Source: Desulfosoma sp. (GTDB lineage: Bacteria; Desulfobacterota; Syntrophobacteria; Syntrophobacterales; DSM-9756). Taken from it: a stretch of 64,000 nt of DNA. The notes under the pieces were generated by a model, which searched no databases, was not told the origin of the DNA, and saw nothing but the letters and a program-made list of their open reading frames with translations. The translations under genes and the position numbers were made by a program. This document shows, in pieces, positions 41,350 to 49,026 of this stretch. Location of the stretch: positions 232,893-296,892 of the forward strand of contig JBBFKY010000004.1 of the NCBI GenBank assembly GCA_037481875.1. The letters are read 5' to 3'. Position 1 is the first letter of the stretch. The number at the start of each line of letters is the position of its first letter.

Positions 41350-42069
41350 CCTCAAAGCTTTTGTCTATCTTCAGTCGGTCTTGGAAGGTGAGGCGGGTTT
41401 TGATGACGGGTTCGAAGCCTGTTTTTTCCGTGCTCGTGTGGCGGATCTGGGCTGTTGTGCCGAAGCGGTCACGGCAGGCTGGGTTTTTTCAAAGAAGTCT
41501 TTTGCGGAAAGCAGCCCTTACTTCATAGAATGAGAGCGGCTGCGAATAGAGCTACAAGAAGAAGCCACAGGCTTCAGGCTCTTAACTTTTCGGCATGGGG
41601 ATCCTTGAGAGTCCTCTGGGTTCCTTCGGGAAGCCGAGCGACTCCGGTGAGGGTTTTTCCAAGGGGAATATTGAGTCGTGCGCCGATCTTCACAGCCCAG
41701 CCACAAGCATCGAGGATGAGTTTTCAGGTTGCGCCGGCGTCATTTCAGCCATGGGATGATCACGGACGGGCCGGAAATGGCCGGCACAAGACCTGCGAGA
41801 GCCAGAAGGATTTGCCACCGTTGCAGGGTCATCAAGCCGGTCATGAAGGAAGTCAAGGCTGTTCCAAGAGCGCCAAAGGCGCGACCGATCAGCGTAGAAC
41901 TGACTTTCTTCAACTTCCCTGAAGTAGAATGGATTGCCTGAAAACGAGCTGCATCATGGAATGGCTCAACAAGGAATTTAGACACAGAACCAGACCAATG
42001 GAAACCCCGGCAGGAGAGTTCTCCAGGGACGCCCTGCCTGCCTTTTTTGCCTTTAAAATGGAAGCACAC
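41350..42069 (-). pseudogene. Possible decayed membrane-protein gene
   Basis: No intact gene fills this stretch, but three minus-strand frames in succession look coding: an N-terminal part ending LQRWQILLALAGLVPAIS, then LDACGWAVKIGARLNIPLGK and VARLPEGTQRTLKDPHAEKL, then a hydrophobic WLLLVALFAAALIL and a basic Ala/Ser tail. Stops or frame changes near 41735 and 41585 separate them. I do not recognise the protein. This may be a degraded gene or chance composition. Confidence 0.3.
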
Positions 42070-42297
42070 CTGAGGTCAAACCCTCTGGGAAAAGAGCGAA
42101 AAAACCTAGCAATACGGCAAAGTTTGGAAGGCAGAAAGTTGACACAAAATGCTGGGCATTAACGGAACTTTGAGGCTCTGTTCAGGCCACCTTTTGAGAT
42201 GGATGGTGTTGCATCCTCATGAAGTCTTGACTATGATACAAAGTAAATTGCATGATAAAGCAGTGCTTTGAGAAAATGATCTGCTTGGGGTTTCGGT

Positions 42298-42801
42298 ATG
42301 ATTCAACCCGTGGATCAAAATCCTACTTTCTCGCCCTTTGACCGGAATGCGACCACCGTCTCCCGCCATGACAAAGTTCAGAATCTTTCGGAAGTAGAGA
42401 TTAAGCAAGTCCAGAAGCTACAACAACGTGATCGTGAAGTTCGAGCCCATGAACAGGCCCACATCGTCGCCGGGGGACGCTACGTTCGAGGAGCGGCCCG
42501 TTTCGAATATCAGCGAGGACCTGACGGAAAATTGTACGCCATTGGTGGAGAGGTCACCTTGGACATAAGTCCTGTTCCTGGGGATCCTCAGGCCACGATG
42601 GCAAAAATGCAGGTGGTTAAGCAGGCGGCTCTTGCTCCGGCACAACCCTCCACACAGGACAGAGTCATCGCGTCAAAAGCTGACATGGAGATTCAAAAAG
42701 CCAGACAGGAACTCCTTTTAAAGAAGGCCCACACAGCCTACTCTCGTGAGAAGCTTCGCGAGCCATCGGAGGTGCCGTCCGTATTATCCGTTTACAGCTA
42801 A
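42298..42801 (+). CDS. Putative metalloprotease of the SprA-related/CJM1_0395 family
   Basis: A 167-residue protein with RAHEQAHIVAGGRYVRGAARFEYQRGPDGKLYAIGGEV, the motif that defines this small family; HEQAH resembles a shortened zinc-protease HExxH. A long charged helix precedes and follows the motif. No signal peptide is seen. Its role is unknown. ATG 42298 has no strong ribosome site (GGGGTTTCGGT), so the start is moderately sure. It stands alone between the decayed gene and the SLOG/DUF4062 pair. Confidence 0.72.
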   Translation: MIQPVDQNPTFSPFDRNATTVSRHDKVQNLSEVEIKQVQKLQQRDREVRAHEQAHIVAGGRYVRGAARFEYQRGPDGKLYAIGGEVTLDISPVPGDPQATMAKMQVVKQAALAPAQPSTQDRVIASKADMEIQKARQELLLKKAHTAYSREKLREPSEVPSVLSVYS

Positions 42802-43224
42802 CCCAAGTTTGTCTTTTTGGGGTTTAACTTATTTACTATTAGATCTCTACTTTTTTTATCCACTGCGGGTTTTATAGTCAACGTTCTTAAGGCTCTTGAA
42901 CGGGCGAGTTGGTAGCCAAAGAACGTTGTCAGTCTCCACATAGATGGGTTCAGGCTCGGACGTATGCCGAATATGAATCCTCTGGCCTATGTCGTTCAGC
43001 ATACTTGTTTTCAGAAGGACTTGTCCGCTCAAACGGGTGCGCAATGTGGCCCAAAGATGGCAAATGCCATGGGCTCGAAGGGCCCTTTGGTCTCATGACC
43101 TCGGAATCATCCGGCAATCTACAACTACCGAACGGCTTGCTATTGGGGTTGGAACGTAACAGAGAGTGCTTCTGCGGATCCATAAAACCGGTGTGAAGTT
43201 ACTGTAACTTCCAGCAGGCCGAAC
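42802..43224. other. Gap before the SLOG gene
   Basis: These 423 bases are between convergent genes. The part near 42830-42890 is clearly AT-rich. A 95-codon plus-strand frame (42909-43196) has no recognisable product and no ribosome site. No terminator or repeat was found. Confidence 0.4.
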
Positions 43225-44751
43225 TCATTCCTTGATAAGGCTAATCGGCTTGTTCCGGTGAATCAGCAGCCAGTTCGAAAGTTCAGCTAGGCACTCACTG
43301 CCGAGCTCCTGAACGAGAACGCGCCGTGTTTTCTCGTCGCCGTATCGCCAAATTTGCTGGCACCAGGAAAATGGTGCGGCCATAGATCTGTAACGTGAGG
43401 CGTCTTCCTCCCATCCACGGGTATGGGTGTAATGGCTTATGGCGCCAACAAGCAACAGTAATACGCTAGACAACATGGTTGTAAAAAATTCCCATTCGGC
43501 ACTGACTGCACCAAGCCATGCCAGGGTTACGCTTGCCGCAAAACAAATGTTTGTAAGCCAACGTGCACAACGCGCAGCAAGCCCGCTAGCTCCGCTCCTT
43601 TTTTGGTAAAAACGCTGCTGGTCATCGATCCAGAATGTTTTCACCAAGTCAAGATCTGGCTTAATCGAGGTATCGGGAATCCACAATGCATTCACCGCAC
43701 TTCGTATCCAGAGCAAATTGCCCCAATGTTGATTCAAAAAGCTATCTGTTGGGGTTGCTGTCACACCCGCCAAACGCCAAAAGCAGGCGATGCGGAGCAC
43801 TTCGGCCAGGGCTCGGTACTCAAGATAGCGTTCAAGATTCCTGCCACGATTCGAAAGACAGATGACCAGAAGCGCGAAAGTCAAGAATAAGCTCGCGCCA
43901 ATTTTCCCGGGTGTGGTGACCCAAACTTGCTGCACCACGTAACCTATAATTGCTAAAACAACGGACGCATTTAGGGCAAACCGAAACCGCCGTTGATGGA
44001 AAATTGCCAGGCGGTCTGCCAAAGCGAATACCCGACTCAGGTTGGACTCAACGAGTAGTTGCTCAGGCAGTTGTTTTAGGAAATCAGACACTGATGCTTT
44101 ACAAACCTTCTTCGCTTCTGCATTAAATTGATCCAGTGGCGAGAGCAATTGGCTGAGATTGGTTGTTTGATCATCGGGATTCGCTGGCCAGATCCAATGT
44201 GGTTTTCGCCTTTTTTCACACGGATTTCGTGGACAGTGAATATGTAACACAGGGCCAATATAGTCAGCAACGCTCGAAAGCGTGTGCCCAGATTCTCCGA
44301 CTTTAGTCCGGAGTTGCACAGTATGCGCCGTACCACCTGGCGCAGGCTCTTCCTGCTTGCCATCCCAAAGCGCGATGATGATCTGGCAGTGACGGGCAAT
44401 CCATCGGCTGGCCCCCTCGTAGCCGCAGAATTCCGACTCGGTAGCGACAAACCAAGATTGCGCCTGAGCCAGCAAGTTCTCAAATTCGTTTTCCGAACCA
44501 GGAAAATCCTGTTCGAATAAAACTTTCTCAAATGGGAGCGGAACAATGAGTTTCATTCCCTTGGCAAGTCCTACCTTCGCTCCCAAACGATCCGCTCCAA
44601 CTGCCAGAGAAGAAACCAAAACAACAGGCGTGTTCGGCACTTGTGATCGTATCTCATCCAGGGCTTGAGATAACTCCGCTTCCAGGTCGCACCGATATTC
44701 TTCCGGAAATTTGCGATGTCCGATGATTCCAATCAGCAGAGGAATGCTCAT
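43225..44751 (-). CDS. SLOG-like Rossmann protein with four C-terminal membrane segments
   Basis: 508 residues. Residues 1-175 resemble the SLOG/LOG nucleotide-binding fold: LLIGIIGHRKFPEE (6-18), VLVSSLAVGADRLGAKVGL (44-62), a strand MKLIVPLPF and CQIIIALWDG (122-131). The C-terminal part has membrane segments at about 258-278, 283-300, 400-418 and 422-441; between the pairs is RYLEYRALAEVLRIACFW (308-325), a pattern I associate with SLATT-type effector membrane domains. The start overlaps the upstream DUF4062 gene by four bases. A nucleotide-sensing, membrane-perturbing effector is inference from related conflict systems. Confidence 0.7.
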   Translation of the reverse strand: MSIPLLIGIIGHRKFPEEYRCDLEAELSQALDEIRSQVPNTPVVLVSSLAVGADRLGAKVGLAKGMKLIVPLPFEKVLFEQDFPGSENEFENLLAQAQSWFVATESEFCGYEGASRWIARHCQIIIALWDGKQEEPAPGGTAHTVQLRTKVGESGHTLSSVADYIGPVLHIHCPRNPCEKRRKPHWIWPANPDDQTTNLSQLLSPLDQFNAEAKKVCKASVSDFLKQLPEQLLVESNLSRVFALADRLAIFHQRRFRFALNASVVLAIIGYVVQQVWVTTPGKIGASLFLTFALLVICLSNRGRNLERYLEYRALAEVLRIACFWRLAGVTATPTDSFLNQHWGNLLWIRSAVNALWIPDTSIKPDLDLVKTFWIDDQQRFYQKRSGASGLAARCARWLTNICFAASVTLAWLGAVSAEWEFFTTMLSSVLLLLVGAISHYTHTRGWEEDASRYRSMAAPFSWCQQIWRYGDEKTRRVLVQELGSECLAELSNWLLIHRNKPISLIKE

Positions 44752-47192
44752 TGATTCTTCTTTGCGCCGGAATAGGCGTGCCAATGTGAAAGCAACACAC
44801 GCTCGGGAGACGCTTCCATCACTCGCATCAAGTAAGCCTTACCCTTAGCCTCTCCCTCCCTCATAAGCCATTCAGGCAAATCATCACGCAGTTCAACATC
44901 GCGAGACGATTCATTTTTGATCTGATCCACCTGTCGATCAAAAATTCTGACAACATCGCCCACTCGCACACCGTAAATAGAGGGAAACGGCAGAAGCATG
45001 CCTACCTTGCGCAGGGTAACACCCTCGAAGTGTTTTAAAGCCTTACGAGCCCGATCCTTGGCATCTTCACAAGCCTTTTCAATAGCCCCCAACTCATTGC
45101 GGAGTGAGGCGAGCTCTTGTTCATATAGAGCCTTTTCTCTGGTATCTTGGCCTACATCTCGCTTGATCTCGTCCAATGACAGTTGCAGTTCCCCCAGCAT
45201 GCTGCGATATTCTCTACGCCTATCGTAACCGACACTAGCAAAAAAAATAGCTATGAAAAAAGGAAGTATCGCATATCGTAGAAGGCCGAGGTAAATTAAT
45301 AGAGACCCTAGCACAGCACCAACAGCGCTTGTCAATAGCATCGCCATTCCGGGAATGTCTATCCCATGCCGCGGAAATGACTTCAGTGAATGTGCTATTT
45401 CGTCTTTGCGTAAGCAATTGTTTTTTAATCGTTCCTCGACAGCCAGCAATCTGCTCTCGGTGGTTTCAATTTCTTCGCGCAATCGCTGCACTCGGCTGGG
45501 CTCGGGGAGTTCAACAGTTGCAGGAACATGCTCAAAAATGTAAGAGTCGTCGGAAAAAACCCACGTTCCATCGTCGCCGGTGCGTGCTGTCATGCGCACG
45601 GCAGTATGTCCCCGAAACAACCACGGAATAATCTTTGTTGATCCTTCATGTTGAAAGGAAAAAACGGTCTCCTCAGGCCGAATGACGTCACCGGGCTTTT
45701 TGAACCATTGGACGATTTGTGCCCGACCTGGTCGGTTGAATTTTAGCAGTTCCTTCGTCGCAGGCGGCAGCTTTGGCGCTTCGGCGTGAAGTTCCTGCAT
45801 CTTCTGCTCGGCTTCATCTACGAGAGTGCAGAGGTAATCGTATTGCCGACGGCAGGACTCACGTCCAGCCTCAATCAATAGGTTAATCGTTTTTCCCTCA
45901 AGTTTCACCTCTACAGCGGATTTTCCTGCCAGCTTGGCGATTTCACCTTCAATTCGAACCACGTCGGCCGCGTCGCGAGCAATCTTTTCTTCTAGCTGTT
46001 GCAACAGCTTACCTATTTCTTTGCGAATGGGACGAAATACAGGATCGCGATAAACCTCGCGCAAGCTTTTGGGGTAAATCCTGAATGCCGTCTCGATCGC
46101 TTCGAGCGTGGCCTTTCTCTCGTTCTCGCGGCACAGCATGCTTTGGCGTGCCAGTTCAACATATGCTCGAGCAAAACGCGGTGCGACTTCAACAGCTTGT
46201 TTAGCAAAGCGGAGCGCCTCATCTAGACGACCAGCAAGTTGAGCCGCGCGGGCAGCGACCATGTAGGCCGCAGAAGCTCGATATGGCAGTTTCTCCAGCT
46301 CGGCGATGCGCCCAGCCCGTTCTGCCCTATCCATCGCCTCAAATGCTTTTTCTTTGCGGCCAAGCGCCACGTACAGCTGGGCCAGCCAGTAGTTGCTCAT
46401 CAAATCAAGCGGCTTGAATTCCAAGGCCCGTTTTAAATGACGAATCGCCACGCTCCATTCGCCAACATCCAGGGCGCGCTGCGCCTGTACGCGCTGCTCC
46501 AGTGCAGCCACGGCCGCTGGTTGGGTGATCGCCGCCAATGTGTTCGTAAAGTGCGCCTTGTCGTCAACCAGCGATGGCGATAGCGAATTACGCTCTTCAA
46601 GCGCCCTGACCTCAGAATCGTCGAGCAGTGATTCATCTTCGATCGCGTCGAAAAGTTCGTACTGGACATCTTCACGTTCCTCCACCGAGAGCGCTCCGAA
46701 GCGCATCTCGTACAACGCAGCCAAAAGCTTATTGAAAATGGTTTGAGCAATCACCTCGACGGGGGTCTCAGGATCGAAGAAACCCATTGTATGGTTTTCT
46801 TCGACCTGTTTTTGCCACGCCGCTAGACGTCTGTCGTCTGAGTATCTTAATCGCCCACCCCGGTAATGTTCGCCTATTCCGAAAACCAGTACGCGGGTAC
46901 CCGAGCCTTCGCTTATAGCCTCTTCGTATTCAAGGTGGGTGAATGACTTATCGGTTTTCGGTGCCAGACTGCCGTAGGTATCGCCCAGTAGTAGAATCAT
47001 GAACTCGGACCGTCGCACGTACCCCAAGCATTCGGCCAATGGTGGTCTGTGGCTGACATGACCATCGTTGAGGTCGATGGGCGTAAGCTGCACTGCTCGG
47101 TGATTTGCAATCAGATCCTTGAGCTGCCTTCGCAACTCTGTAAATTCCTCAAAACGTGATGCGATAAAAACGGCGGTCTTGAGTAAGGCCAT
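44748..47192 (-). CDS. DUF4062-TPR-coiled coil-2TM protein
   Basis: 814 residues. About 5-155 match DUF4062, a TIR-like domain (VFIASRFEEFTELRRQLKDL, FMILLLGDTYGSL, HLEYEEAIS). TPR-like helices follow (225-375), a coiled coil (395-475), a barrel-like block resembling a biotinyl/lipoyl fold (488-560: IVQWFKKPGDVIRPEETVF) without the attachment lysine motif, a second coil, a membrane hairpin (613-657), a third coil (660-725) and a small C-terminal domain. GAGGAG precedes the start. It is the first gene of a two-gene cassette. Overall architecture is not one I can name. Confidence 0.72.
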   Translation of the reverse strand: MALLKTAVFIASRFEEFTELRRQLKDLIANHRAVQLTPIDLNDGHVSHRPPLAECLGYVRRSEFMILLLGDTYGSLAPKTDKSFTHLEYEEAISEGSGTRVLVFGIGEHYRGGRLRYSDDRRLAAWQKQVEENHTMGFFDPETPVEVIAQTIFNKLLAALYEMRFGALSVEEREDVQYELFDAIEDESLLDDSEVRALEERNSLSPSLVDDKAHFTNTLAAITQPAAVAALEQRVQAQRALDVGEWSVAIRHLKRALEFKPLDLMSNYWLAQLYVALGRKEKAFEAMDRAERAGRIAELEKLPYRASAAYMVAARAAQLAGRLDEALRFAKQAVEVAPRFARAYVELARQSMLCRENERKATLEAIETAFRIYPKSLREVYRDPVFRPIRKEIGKLLQQLEEKIARDAADVVRIEGEIAKLAGKSAVEVKLEGKTINLLIEAGRESCRRQYDYLCTLVDEAEQKMQELHAEAPKLPPATKELLKFNRPGRAQIVQWFKKPGDVIRPEETVFSFQHEGSTKIIPWLFRGHTAVRMTARTGDDGTWVFSDDSYIFEHVPATVELPEPSRVQRLREEIETTESRLLAVEERLKNNCLRKDEIAHSLKSFPRHGIDIPGMAMLLTSAVGAVLGSLLIYLGLLRYAILPFFIAIFFASVGYDRRREYRSMLGELQLSLDEIKRDVGQDTREKALYEQELASLRNELGAIEKACEDAKDRARKALKHFEGVTLRKVGMLLPFPSIYGVRVGDVVRIFDRQVDQIKNESSRDVELRDDLPEWLMREGEAKGKAYLMRVMEASPERVLLSHWHAYSGAKKNQ

Positions 47193-47490
47193 CTAGTTGT
47201 TCTCCTCTTGGTTAGGCGGTCATGCAGAAGGTAGGCTGGCGTGAAAAGCCTTCTGAAATTTTAAGTCCTGAATCCGTGAGGTGTGGTGGACCGATCTGAG
47301 TTGCTGGCATGGTGACCCCGTTTTGAGCAGTCGACGATGCCCTGTTTCAGTCGGTTGCCCGAATCATCGCCTCTCGAGCGGTAGAAAAGTGATCGTGACT
47401 GTGATCATTCAGCTGTTTTCGGGCATAGCTCATCCCCGTTCAATGTGAACATAGAATGGATCCAGGCTCTTGCAACGAATTCCTTTTGCC

Positions 47491-48548
47491 TTACCCTGGG
47501 CAAAAATTTAGATAGACGCTCCGAAGTGCTCGAAAGGCATGACAATACCGGCTAAACTGGAGCTTCAGCCGACGACCGCTTCGAATCAAGCGCCCTGCCA
47601 GATAGATCAGTTCCTGGATCACGGTCTTGATGCGACGCCGCTTGGCCCGATGCCGTACGGGCGAAAAACGGCCCAAGAGCCCGTTTTGCCCCAGGATGCG
47701 CAAGATGTTGTAAGCCAGTCCGCCCAGGGTCAACACCAAAGCATTGGTCGCAAACTTTCCAGAGGGCAATCGCTCCAAGTCCAGATCGGACTTGATCTCA
47801 CTGTGAAACTGTTCACTCAGACCCCGCTTTTCATCCAACCGAATCCCTTGATCCTCATCGATGGAAAGAGACGTCCACCAACCCTCCAGCGTGATATCGG
47901 GCTGGATCAGCATTTGTCCCTTGGCATCCGATATTCGCTCGGTGACCCGGATCACCAGGCGAAACCGATAGCTTTCCCCTCCATAGTGTCGTGTCACCCA
48001 TGTGCTGAGGATCGCCACTTTCTTGCCGGGCCGAGGCTCCGTCACACGGCCCTCCCTGAAGGCCCGATCACGCCAAGAAAGGCGGTCCGCCCCGCGTGGA
48101 TTCCATTGGATGATGAAGTTCACATCAGGGTGTCGGCGAAGCTCCACAAGCGTTTCCACAGCATCGTGAGCCGAGTCGGTTCGCACCAGCAGGGGCCTTC
48201 GAGTATCCTTACGAGCATGCACCACCATCTTGCACAAAAACCCCACAAATCCGTTCTGGGAATGCTGAGACCCGGGTCAAAGCTTCATGCCCAGACACCA
48301 TCGGTTTCGGCCGAGGTAGGCCGCAATCGACGCGTATTCCTCATCGTTCCGGTACGTCCGCGACACCCCTTCTTTCTTTGTGGAGGTCCTGACCCCATCC
48401 GCATGAGAAATCACCGGCCCTCCCGGAACTTCCTTCTCCAAGCTTTAGCAAAGGTCCGTGCCGCCGTTGATCCAATCGCCCACAAGAACCAGGCCCGAGT
48501 GACCGCTGGAGAAGGCCTTCGAGATTGTTCAAGCTCCATTCTTTTCAT
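47491..48548 (-). pseudogene. IS1380-family transposase, disrupted
   Basis: The C-terminal 250 codons are open and carry LLVRTDSAHDAVETL, YNFIIQWNPRG-like and FHSEIKSDLDLERLPSGKFATNALVL, which are IS1380 transposase motifs. The N-terminal part is present upstream (MKRMELEQSRRPSPAVTRAW from 48548) but changes frame near 48415, and an in-frame TGA lies at 48277-48279 where the family normally has arginine (GMKL-stop-PGSQHSQNG). The element therefore cannot make an intact transposase. Confidence 0.8.
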
Positions 48549-48579
48549 GAGGGCACCTGCCGGGTGAAATTGGGACAGG
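47495..48579 (-). mobile_element. Degenerate IS1380-family insertion sequence
   Basis: The disrupted transposase is framed by imperfect inverted ends: CCTGGGCAAAAATTTAG at 47495 and CCTGTCCCAATTTCACCC reading inward from 48579. Flanking bases (TTAC and AGAT) do not match, so no target duplication remains. It lies between the DUF4062/SLOG pair and the tRNA genes. Confidence 0.6.
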
Positions 48580-48991
48580 AGATCCTATAACACAAAAGCG
48601 AATGAAATTCAATACGATACATGCGACAAGATAGTTTTATCTACAGACACAATCTCACGGATTAAAGCCTTTCTCACGCAGAGCCGACCATCTCAAACCA
48701 TCTCATGTCCATTCTGAACACTTTGAGTGGTTCCATCGTTTTCTTCGGACTCCGGGCAAATGCGGTTGTCTCGATTCAAAAGAGTGTCGACAAAAATCTA
48801 GGCGGTTTGGTCGTATCATTGACGTTGGTGGCGTGCCTCTCGTTTGCCCAAATTGATCAAAATGCTTGGAGCCGATCTTTGGATCTGCGTACCTTCCTCT
48901 GGTCTGTGGGCGATAGCGTCCGATAGGGAGGTGATGCGAGCCCTTAGGCGATCTTTTAGGTTCTTTTGATTGATTAAGGACAGAAGACACC
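48580..48991. other. Gap between the IS remnant and the tRNA terminator
   Basis: A 96-codon minus-strand frame (48703-48993) and a 73-codon plus-strand frame (48705-48926) overlap here, neither recognisable nor preceded by a convincing ribosome site. The stretch may be IS-associated debris. Confidence 0.35.
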
Positions 48992-49026
48992 AAAAAAGGG
49001 CTTTACCTCATGAAGGTAAAGCCCTT
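48992..49026 (-). terminator. Terminator of the tRNA-Val/tRNA-Asp unit
   Basis: On the minus strand a 13-base stem (AAGGGCTTTACCT/AGGTAAAGCCCTT) with a five-base loop is followed by TTTTGG. It lies 10 bases beyond tRNA-Asp. Confidence 0.9.

Follow-up and report, generated by a model that had tools for sequence, protein, structure and literature searches.

A DUF4062–TPR gene coupled to a SLOG–SLATT gene in Desulfosoma sp.: a probable two-gene conflict system

DUF4062 has only just been reported as a TIR-like NADase that protects bacteria, a 2026 preprint describing it as a family that hydrolyses nicotinamide adenine dinucleotide (NAD+) and is used in antiphage defence (PMC13174449). The Swarozyc protein KpSwz aborts phage infection by depleting NAD+, for which residue E97 is required, and the product released by the DUF4062 domains of KpSwz and TEP1 is plain ADP-ribose (PMC13174449). 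Thoeris systems consist of two genes that encode a TIR-fold, NAD+-cleaving sensor and a SLOG or membrane effector. The Thoeris SLOG domain binds 3' cyclic ADP-ribose (3'cADPR) and effectors of the transmembrane (TM)-macro type oligomerise on ADP-ribose (PMC11204291). SLATT domains are predicted to be membrane effectors regulated by nucleotides or ADP-ribose derivatives, and in phages SLATT genes have TIR genes next to them (PMC9503650, PMC7159879); RyR-domain proteins of phages bind or cleave 2'/3'cADPR (PMC13232231). Here we describe a cassette of two genes, A and B, found in a 64,000-nucleotide stretch (the window) of Desulfosoma sp. contig JBBFKY010000004.1 (positions 232,893 to 296,892, forward strand), in which a DUF4062 protein is coupled to a SLOG–SLATT membrane protein. 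We think it probable, though some way short of certain, that the pair is a Thoeris-like two-gene anti-phage (conflict) system with A as NAD+-cleaving sensor and B as SLOG–SLATT membrane effector.

Gene A (positions 44748..47192 of the window, on the minus strand like all coding features below) has a good ribosome-binding site (AGAGGAGAACAACTAGATG) and encodes an 814 amino acid protein in which a DUF4062 (TIR-like) domain is followed by TPRs, coiled coils, a hairpin of two transmembrane helices (2TM) and a C-terminal domain. An earlier note on this DNA, made from the letters alone, had read the start of the protein as DUF4062, and Pfam agrees rather than pointing to an unrelated family: the domain (residues 1-165; 46698..47192), also seen by profile and model, scores 5.6e-15 and 55.7 bits against a cut-off of 24.7. 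In the AlphaFold model of A (predicted local distance difference test score, pLDDT, 74), residues 6-163 take up a TIR fold, matching the RPS4/RRS1 TIR domain (4c6t_D) with Z 14.3 and a root-mean-square deviation (rmsd) of 2.7 over 142 residues. Plasmid sequences were left out of the alignments used for structure prediction.

Evidence that this domain may be catalytic comes from a profile of the N-terminal domain (residues 1-170) of ten A relatives, which was searched against solved structures and matches two of DUF4062 proteins, KpSwz (10wc, E = 2.8e-4) and human TEP1 (11gz, E = 3.7e-4). Residue E88 of A, part of a THLEY motif (codon 46929..46931) and invariant in 10 of 10 relatives, aligns with an alanine at chain position 84 of the KpSwz structure; since the preprint gives its construct as residues 15-C with E97A, an offset of 13 would make this alanine the mutated E97 and E88 the predicted catalytic glutamate. 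Profile, fold and conserved glutamate together place A, at the level of sequence and model, in the DUF4062/TIR-like NADase family, and A would be expected to carry out the NADase reaction.

The TPR array of A (residues 225-388; 46029..46520) is presumably its sensor or oligomerisation part. Several Pfam TPR models score near cut-off there and an NCBIfam TPR-end domain above it, the model resembles the TPRs of OGT (Z 16.2), and TPR structures were all that Foldseek returned for whole A. The array runs into the first of three coiled coils seen in the model (residues 384-469, 45786..46043; then ~567-610 and ~658-724), the last of which is long (45021..45221 for residues 658-724) and lies C-terminal to the membrane hairpin (residues ~610-657; 45222..45353 for 614-657), itself recognised from hydropathy and model. 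TPRs, three coiled coils and one hairpin had all been named in the earlier note; two further parts had escaped it. The first is an insert at residues 471-563 (45504..45782), which in alignments of relatives is seen only in window A and in A of a second locus, L053 (below). It is weakly lipoyl-like; a lipoyl identity was not confirmed, the PDB lipoyl-domain match being weak (E = 0.03) and the pLDDT low. The second is a C-terminal alpha/beta domain (residues 726-810, 44763..45017, from alignments with relatives; residues 747-807 in the model), which has no Pfam match, distinguishes the A family and could be where the trigger is sensed. Its motif PFxS...VR...LSR..AY is conserved in the relatives at L011, L012, L004 and L053.

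Gene B (43225..44751) encodes 508 residues from an ATG at 44751, the 519-residue open reading frame from TTG 44784 being merely a longer reading. As had been claimed, the two genes overlap by 4 bp: the stop of A and the start of B share the sequence ATGA (44748..44751), an arrangement that we read as translational coupling of two genes on a shared transcript. In a model of B (pLDDT 74; predicted template modelling score, pTM, 0.75) the first domain (residues 1-190; 44182..44751) appears as a Rossmannoid, YpsA-like SLOG fold, closest to YpsA (2nx2; Z 14.7, rmsd 3.0, 153 residues) and then to DprA (Z 10.4) and LOG (Z 8.7). The catalytic motif of LOG enzymes, PGGxGTxxE, is replaced in B by GGTAHTV, and the residues after it vary among aligned relatives; the SLOG domain of B is thus more likely to be a sensor than an enzyme. 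The same substitution counts against the idea that B makes or edits the signal, as a SLOG enzyme acting on an ADP-ribose-type nucleotide, and that the hairpin of A is the main membrane effector, as does the fact that the hairpin region is the least conserved part of A. Although A does possess a 2TM hairpin and some SLOG proteins cleave base–ribose bonds (PMC9503650), we regard this idea as very improbable.

Beyond the SLOG domain lies a helical part with four transmembrane segments (residues ~256-300 and ~399-440), forming two hairpins in line with the earlier reading of the protein. The first 2TM module (residues 237-328; 43768..44043) is of the DUF4231/SLATT_3 type (Pfam DUF4231 1.3e-4, NCBIfam SLATT_3 2.5e-4) and the second (residues 367-500; 43252..43653) of the SLATT_1 type (NCBIfam 2.1e-5, Pfam 1.9e-4). 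In relatives the SLATT modules lie far above cut-off, DUF4231 being found in five of eight aligned B relatives (best 3.2e-16). On this sequence evidence B carries 2TM modules of the SLATT effector type, and, as predicted for such domains in the literature, it may form a pore or otherwise permeabilise the membrane. The B family had no match among PDB sequences, and PADLOC gave nothing useful for A or B beyond one weak LeoBC coiled-coil match. ABC transporters, dynein and TRPM8 were rejected as likenesses of B, these being long-helix or weak structure matches.

The pair is not confined to Desulfosoma. A Burkholderiales genome (G752, locus L053) carries the same unit, its A and B proteins being 70% and 73% identical to those of the window and their start and stop coupled in the same way, so that the pair does co-occur in another lineage, as the earlier note had proposed looking for. 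The two cassettes share 75.5% DNA identity over 3974 bp, and nothing but the cassette aligns within the 7-kb window stretch compared. Ratios of non-synonymous to synonymous substitution against this relative are 0.24 for A, 0.07 for its DUF4062 part and 0.11 for B, indicating that both genes are under purifying selection; since both are also full length, their reading frames are not chance.

How might the pair work? In the reading that we prefer, the TPR, coiled-coil and C-terminal parts of A would respond to a cue from the phage, at the membrane or close to it, by clustering the DUF4062 domains, which would then cleave NAD+ to an ADP-ribose-type product. The YpsA-like SLOG domain of B could read this product, or the loss of NAD+, whereupon its two SLATT hairpins would open or disrupt the membrane and the infected cell would stop or die before phage release (abortive infection).

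The strongest competing reading gives B an accessory part and has A do all the killing, by depleting NAD+: A, like Swarozyc, would sense phage by itself, and B would anchor, regulate or restrain it at the membrane, for example through a SLOG domain reading NAD+ or ADP-ribose levels. Because the DUF4062 domains of KpSwz and TEP1 give plain ADP-ribose and KpSwz kills by depleting NAD+ (PMC13174449), A could be accounted for without a signal, and it moreover has a membrane hairpin and a presumed sensor of its own; one A relative (L014) also lacks an obvious adjacent partner, its genome holding a B relative elsewhere. Several further points weigh against a sensor–effector pair. The DUF4231 and SLATT_1 matches in B itself fall slightly under the Pfam cut-off, the exact A+B architecture was found in one other genome only, one B relative (L050) is solitary, the window cassette lies outside any recognisable defence island, and enrichment of neighbourhoods was judged rather than measured against a matched control. 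Against a merely accessory B, on the other hand, stand the nature of SLATT hairpins as an effector-type module (PMC7159879, PMC9503650), the retention of a SLATT partner in L011 (below) even though SLOG has been lost, and the co-inheritance of the unit with strong constraint on B. We consider an accessory B rather unlikely and keep to the Thoeris-like pair as the preferred reading.

Further support for a conflict role comes from the relatives of A and their neighbours. The gene after A in Paraburkholderia (L011) encodes a protein that has SLATT_3 and SLATT_1 modules (1e-34, 3e-36) but lacks a SLOG domain, and beyond it lies a Pycsar operon (PycC 1e-216, E1-E2, JAB, PycTIR); a ThsB-like TIR gene is found upstream. 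In a gammaproteobacterial metagenome-assembled genome (MAG; L012), a TPR-S protein precedes A and a Card1/Csx1-type nuclease is encoded nearby; a SLOG-like start to the TPR-S partner was rejected as weak (0.0045). In Campylobacterota (L004, on a plasmid, and L059), A adjoins a TrkA_N membrane protein and a RyR domain, separate in one locus and fused in the other, and L059 has a DUF4062-STAND gene nearby too. In a Thiobacillus genome, type I restriction genes adjoin what remains of A, a truncated form of 148 aa (83%), and contig ends interrupt the A loci L013 and L015. The partners of A, namely SLOG–SLATT, SLATT alone and TrkA_N-RyR, thus exchange within the domains of NAD/ADP-ribose signalling. 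As to whether the pair lies near known defence genes, relatives of A occur beside Pycsar, ThsB-like TIR, Card1/Csx1-type nuclease and type I restriction genes, whilst the window cassette is not in a recognisable defence island. The survey and the DUF4062 literature (PMC13174449) support a conflict role, whilst defence activity itself is still a prediction.

Loci obtained with B, independently of A, present a similar picture. In L094, L095 and Caballeronia (L005), the neighbours of SLOG–SLATT or related membrane proteins are TIR proteins; in the Acidobacteria set (L096:5293-14367) the order is RyR-AAA, SLOG–SLATT, DUF4062-STAND-WD40, and in the phylum of the window (L100:2100-10678) it is RyR, SLOG without SLATT, DUF4062-STAND. 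These neighbourhoods indicate that the pairings recur with different architectures, and the repeated coupling of SLOG–SLATT relatives with TIR, RyR or DUF4062 proteins supports a conflict role. The triads of RyR, SLOG(-SLATT) and DUF4062-STAND, found in two different phyla, form a second recurring arrangement of these domains. In L092 and L093, SLOG-SLATT-SLATT proteins are coupled to a histidine kinase–response regulator protein; the C-terminus of the latter looks DUF4062-like but was not counted, since in L093 its score stays below cut-off (0.0032) and in L092 there is no match. When viral contigs and phages were searched, neither protein nor the early alignments brought up a full relative, and the matches were limited to three weak SLOG-like loci.

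Where does this leave the cassette among known systems? It lies between Swarozyc and Thoeris and fits the full definition of neither. Like Swarozyc (PMC13174449), A has an N-terminal DUF4062 TIR-like NADase domain with the predicted catalytic glutamate, a patchy, horizontally moved distribution and an auxiliary, presumed C-terminal sensor region. Unlike A, with its TPRs, coiled coils, 2TM hairpin and different alpha/beta domain, Swarozyc has a helix-turn-helix/winged portal-binding domain, and it works as a single gene, whereas A is coupled to a SLOG–SLATT partner here and in L053. The match to KpSwz extends no further than residue 103 of the residue 1-170 profile, KpSwz was not among the best 60 matches of a whole-A profile, and SLOG, SLATT and TPR are not mentioned in the main text of PMC13174449. 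Thoeris offers the likeness of two genes pairing a TIR-fold, NAD+-cleaving sensor with a SLOG or membrane effector, yet its sensor is the ThsB TIR rather than DUF4062 and its ThsA is SIR2-SLOG or TM-macro rather than a YpsA-like SLOG with two SLATT hairpins. Despite its TIR fold, A has no ThsB model match in PADLOC, and B has no SIR2, Macro or STALD match in Pfam or PADLOC.

The TIR+SLATT and SLOG–SLATT conflict modules of the Burroughs/Aravind network likewise combine a nucleotide-signal module with a 2TM SLATT effector and associate SLOG with SLATT, but here the signal source would be a DUF4062-TPR-2TM protein. DUF4062 is absent from PMC9503650 and PMC7159879, although the founding 2015 SLOG/SLATT paper may have mentioned it earlier. 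DUF4062-STAND proteins of the TEP1/NWD type share the TIR-like domain, and in L096 and L100 bacterial ones lie together with genes for SLOG(-SLATT) and RyR proteins, but A has neither a NACHT/STAND ATPase nor WD40 repeats. The parts are therefore known, whilst the pairing of a DUF4062 NADase-type sensor with a SLOG–SLATT effector appears to be undescribed.

A broader possibility, which we put forward tentatively and hold to be less probable than not, is that DUF4062 proteins have a second-messenger branch besides the NAD+-depleting killers, in which an ADP-ribose-type signal would be read by a YpsA-like SLOG domain that opens SLATT pores, with RyR tuning the signal; DUF4062, SLOG, SLATT and RyR would then be interchangeable parts of a single immune network of prokaryotes, and the animal TEP1/NWD, TRPM and RyR proteins would be their counterparts. 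If DUF4062 does signal to membrane effectors, the family would send messages in addition to killing, which is what canonical TIR domains turned out to do. The exchange of partners (SLOG–SLATT, SLATT alone, TrkA_N-RyR, SLOG-STAND triads) offers a concrete two-gene unit with which to ask what SLOG and SLATT respond to, a response that PMC9503650 and PMC7159879 predict without a direct test.

Turning to the genomic setting, the neighbours of the cassette encode an SprA-related peptidase, a truncated transposase, tRNAs and Lon, whose functions are unrelated to it, as the earlier note had said. Two other species of the genus (G001 and G002) keep both flanks, the right one being a tRNA-Asp/tRNA-Val pair and lon, with only 1.5 kb and 0.55 kb between them against ~7-8 kb in the window. 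The interval missing from these empty sites (41866..48992) holds the cassette, the SprA-related gene and an insertion sequence (IS), so that the cassette was gained at a variable site next to tRNA genes, unless both sister species have lost it. A further reading is that a mobile segment carries a non-immune system here, one concerned with membrane stress or with the homeostasis of NAD+: neither the window nor the G752 context is a defence island, and the A-like proteins of L060 type (below), without recognisable DUF4062, sit among housekeeping genes. A homeostatic role accords poorly, however, with the empty sites, with the defence or conflict-domain neighbours of most relatives and with a presence so patchy that, at E<=1e-10, none of 394 other genomes of the phylum has an A relative (this genome, G000, alone of 395); we judge it quite improbable.

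The L060 protein (L060:8004-9932, genome G858), which has a match in G855, retains A-like TPR and C-terminal parts in a housekeeping context and belongs to the same phylum as the Campylobacterota MAG of L015; relatives of this type may be a domesticated or degenerate form. Within the cassette region of the window, a sigma-70 promoter scan gave no match. The IS (47266..48670, minus strand; truncated DDE_Tnp_1_4 transposase by Pfam), present in many copies in G000 and G005, ends 74 bp before gene A, whose promoter it may have supplied or pushed aside. Two repeats downstream of the cassette (41900-42164 and 42799-43053) have many copies in this genome or in one of the same family, and copies of the second often lie where contigs end.

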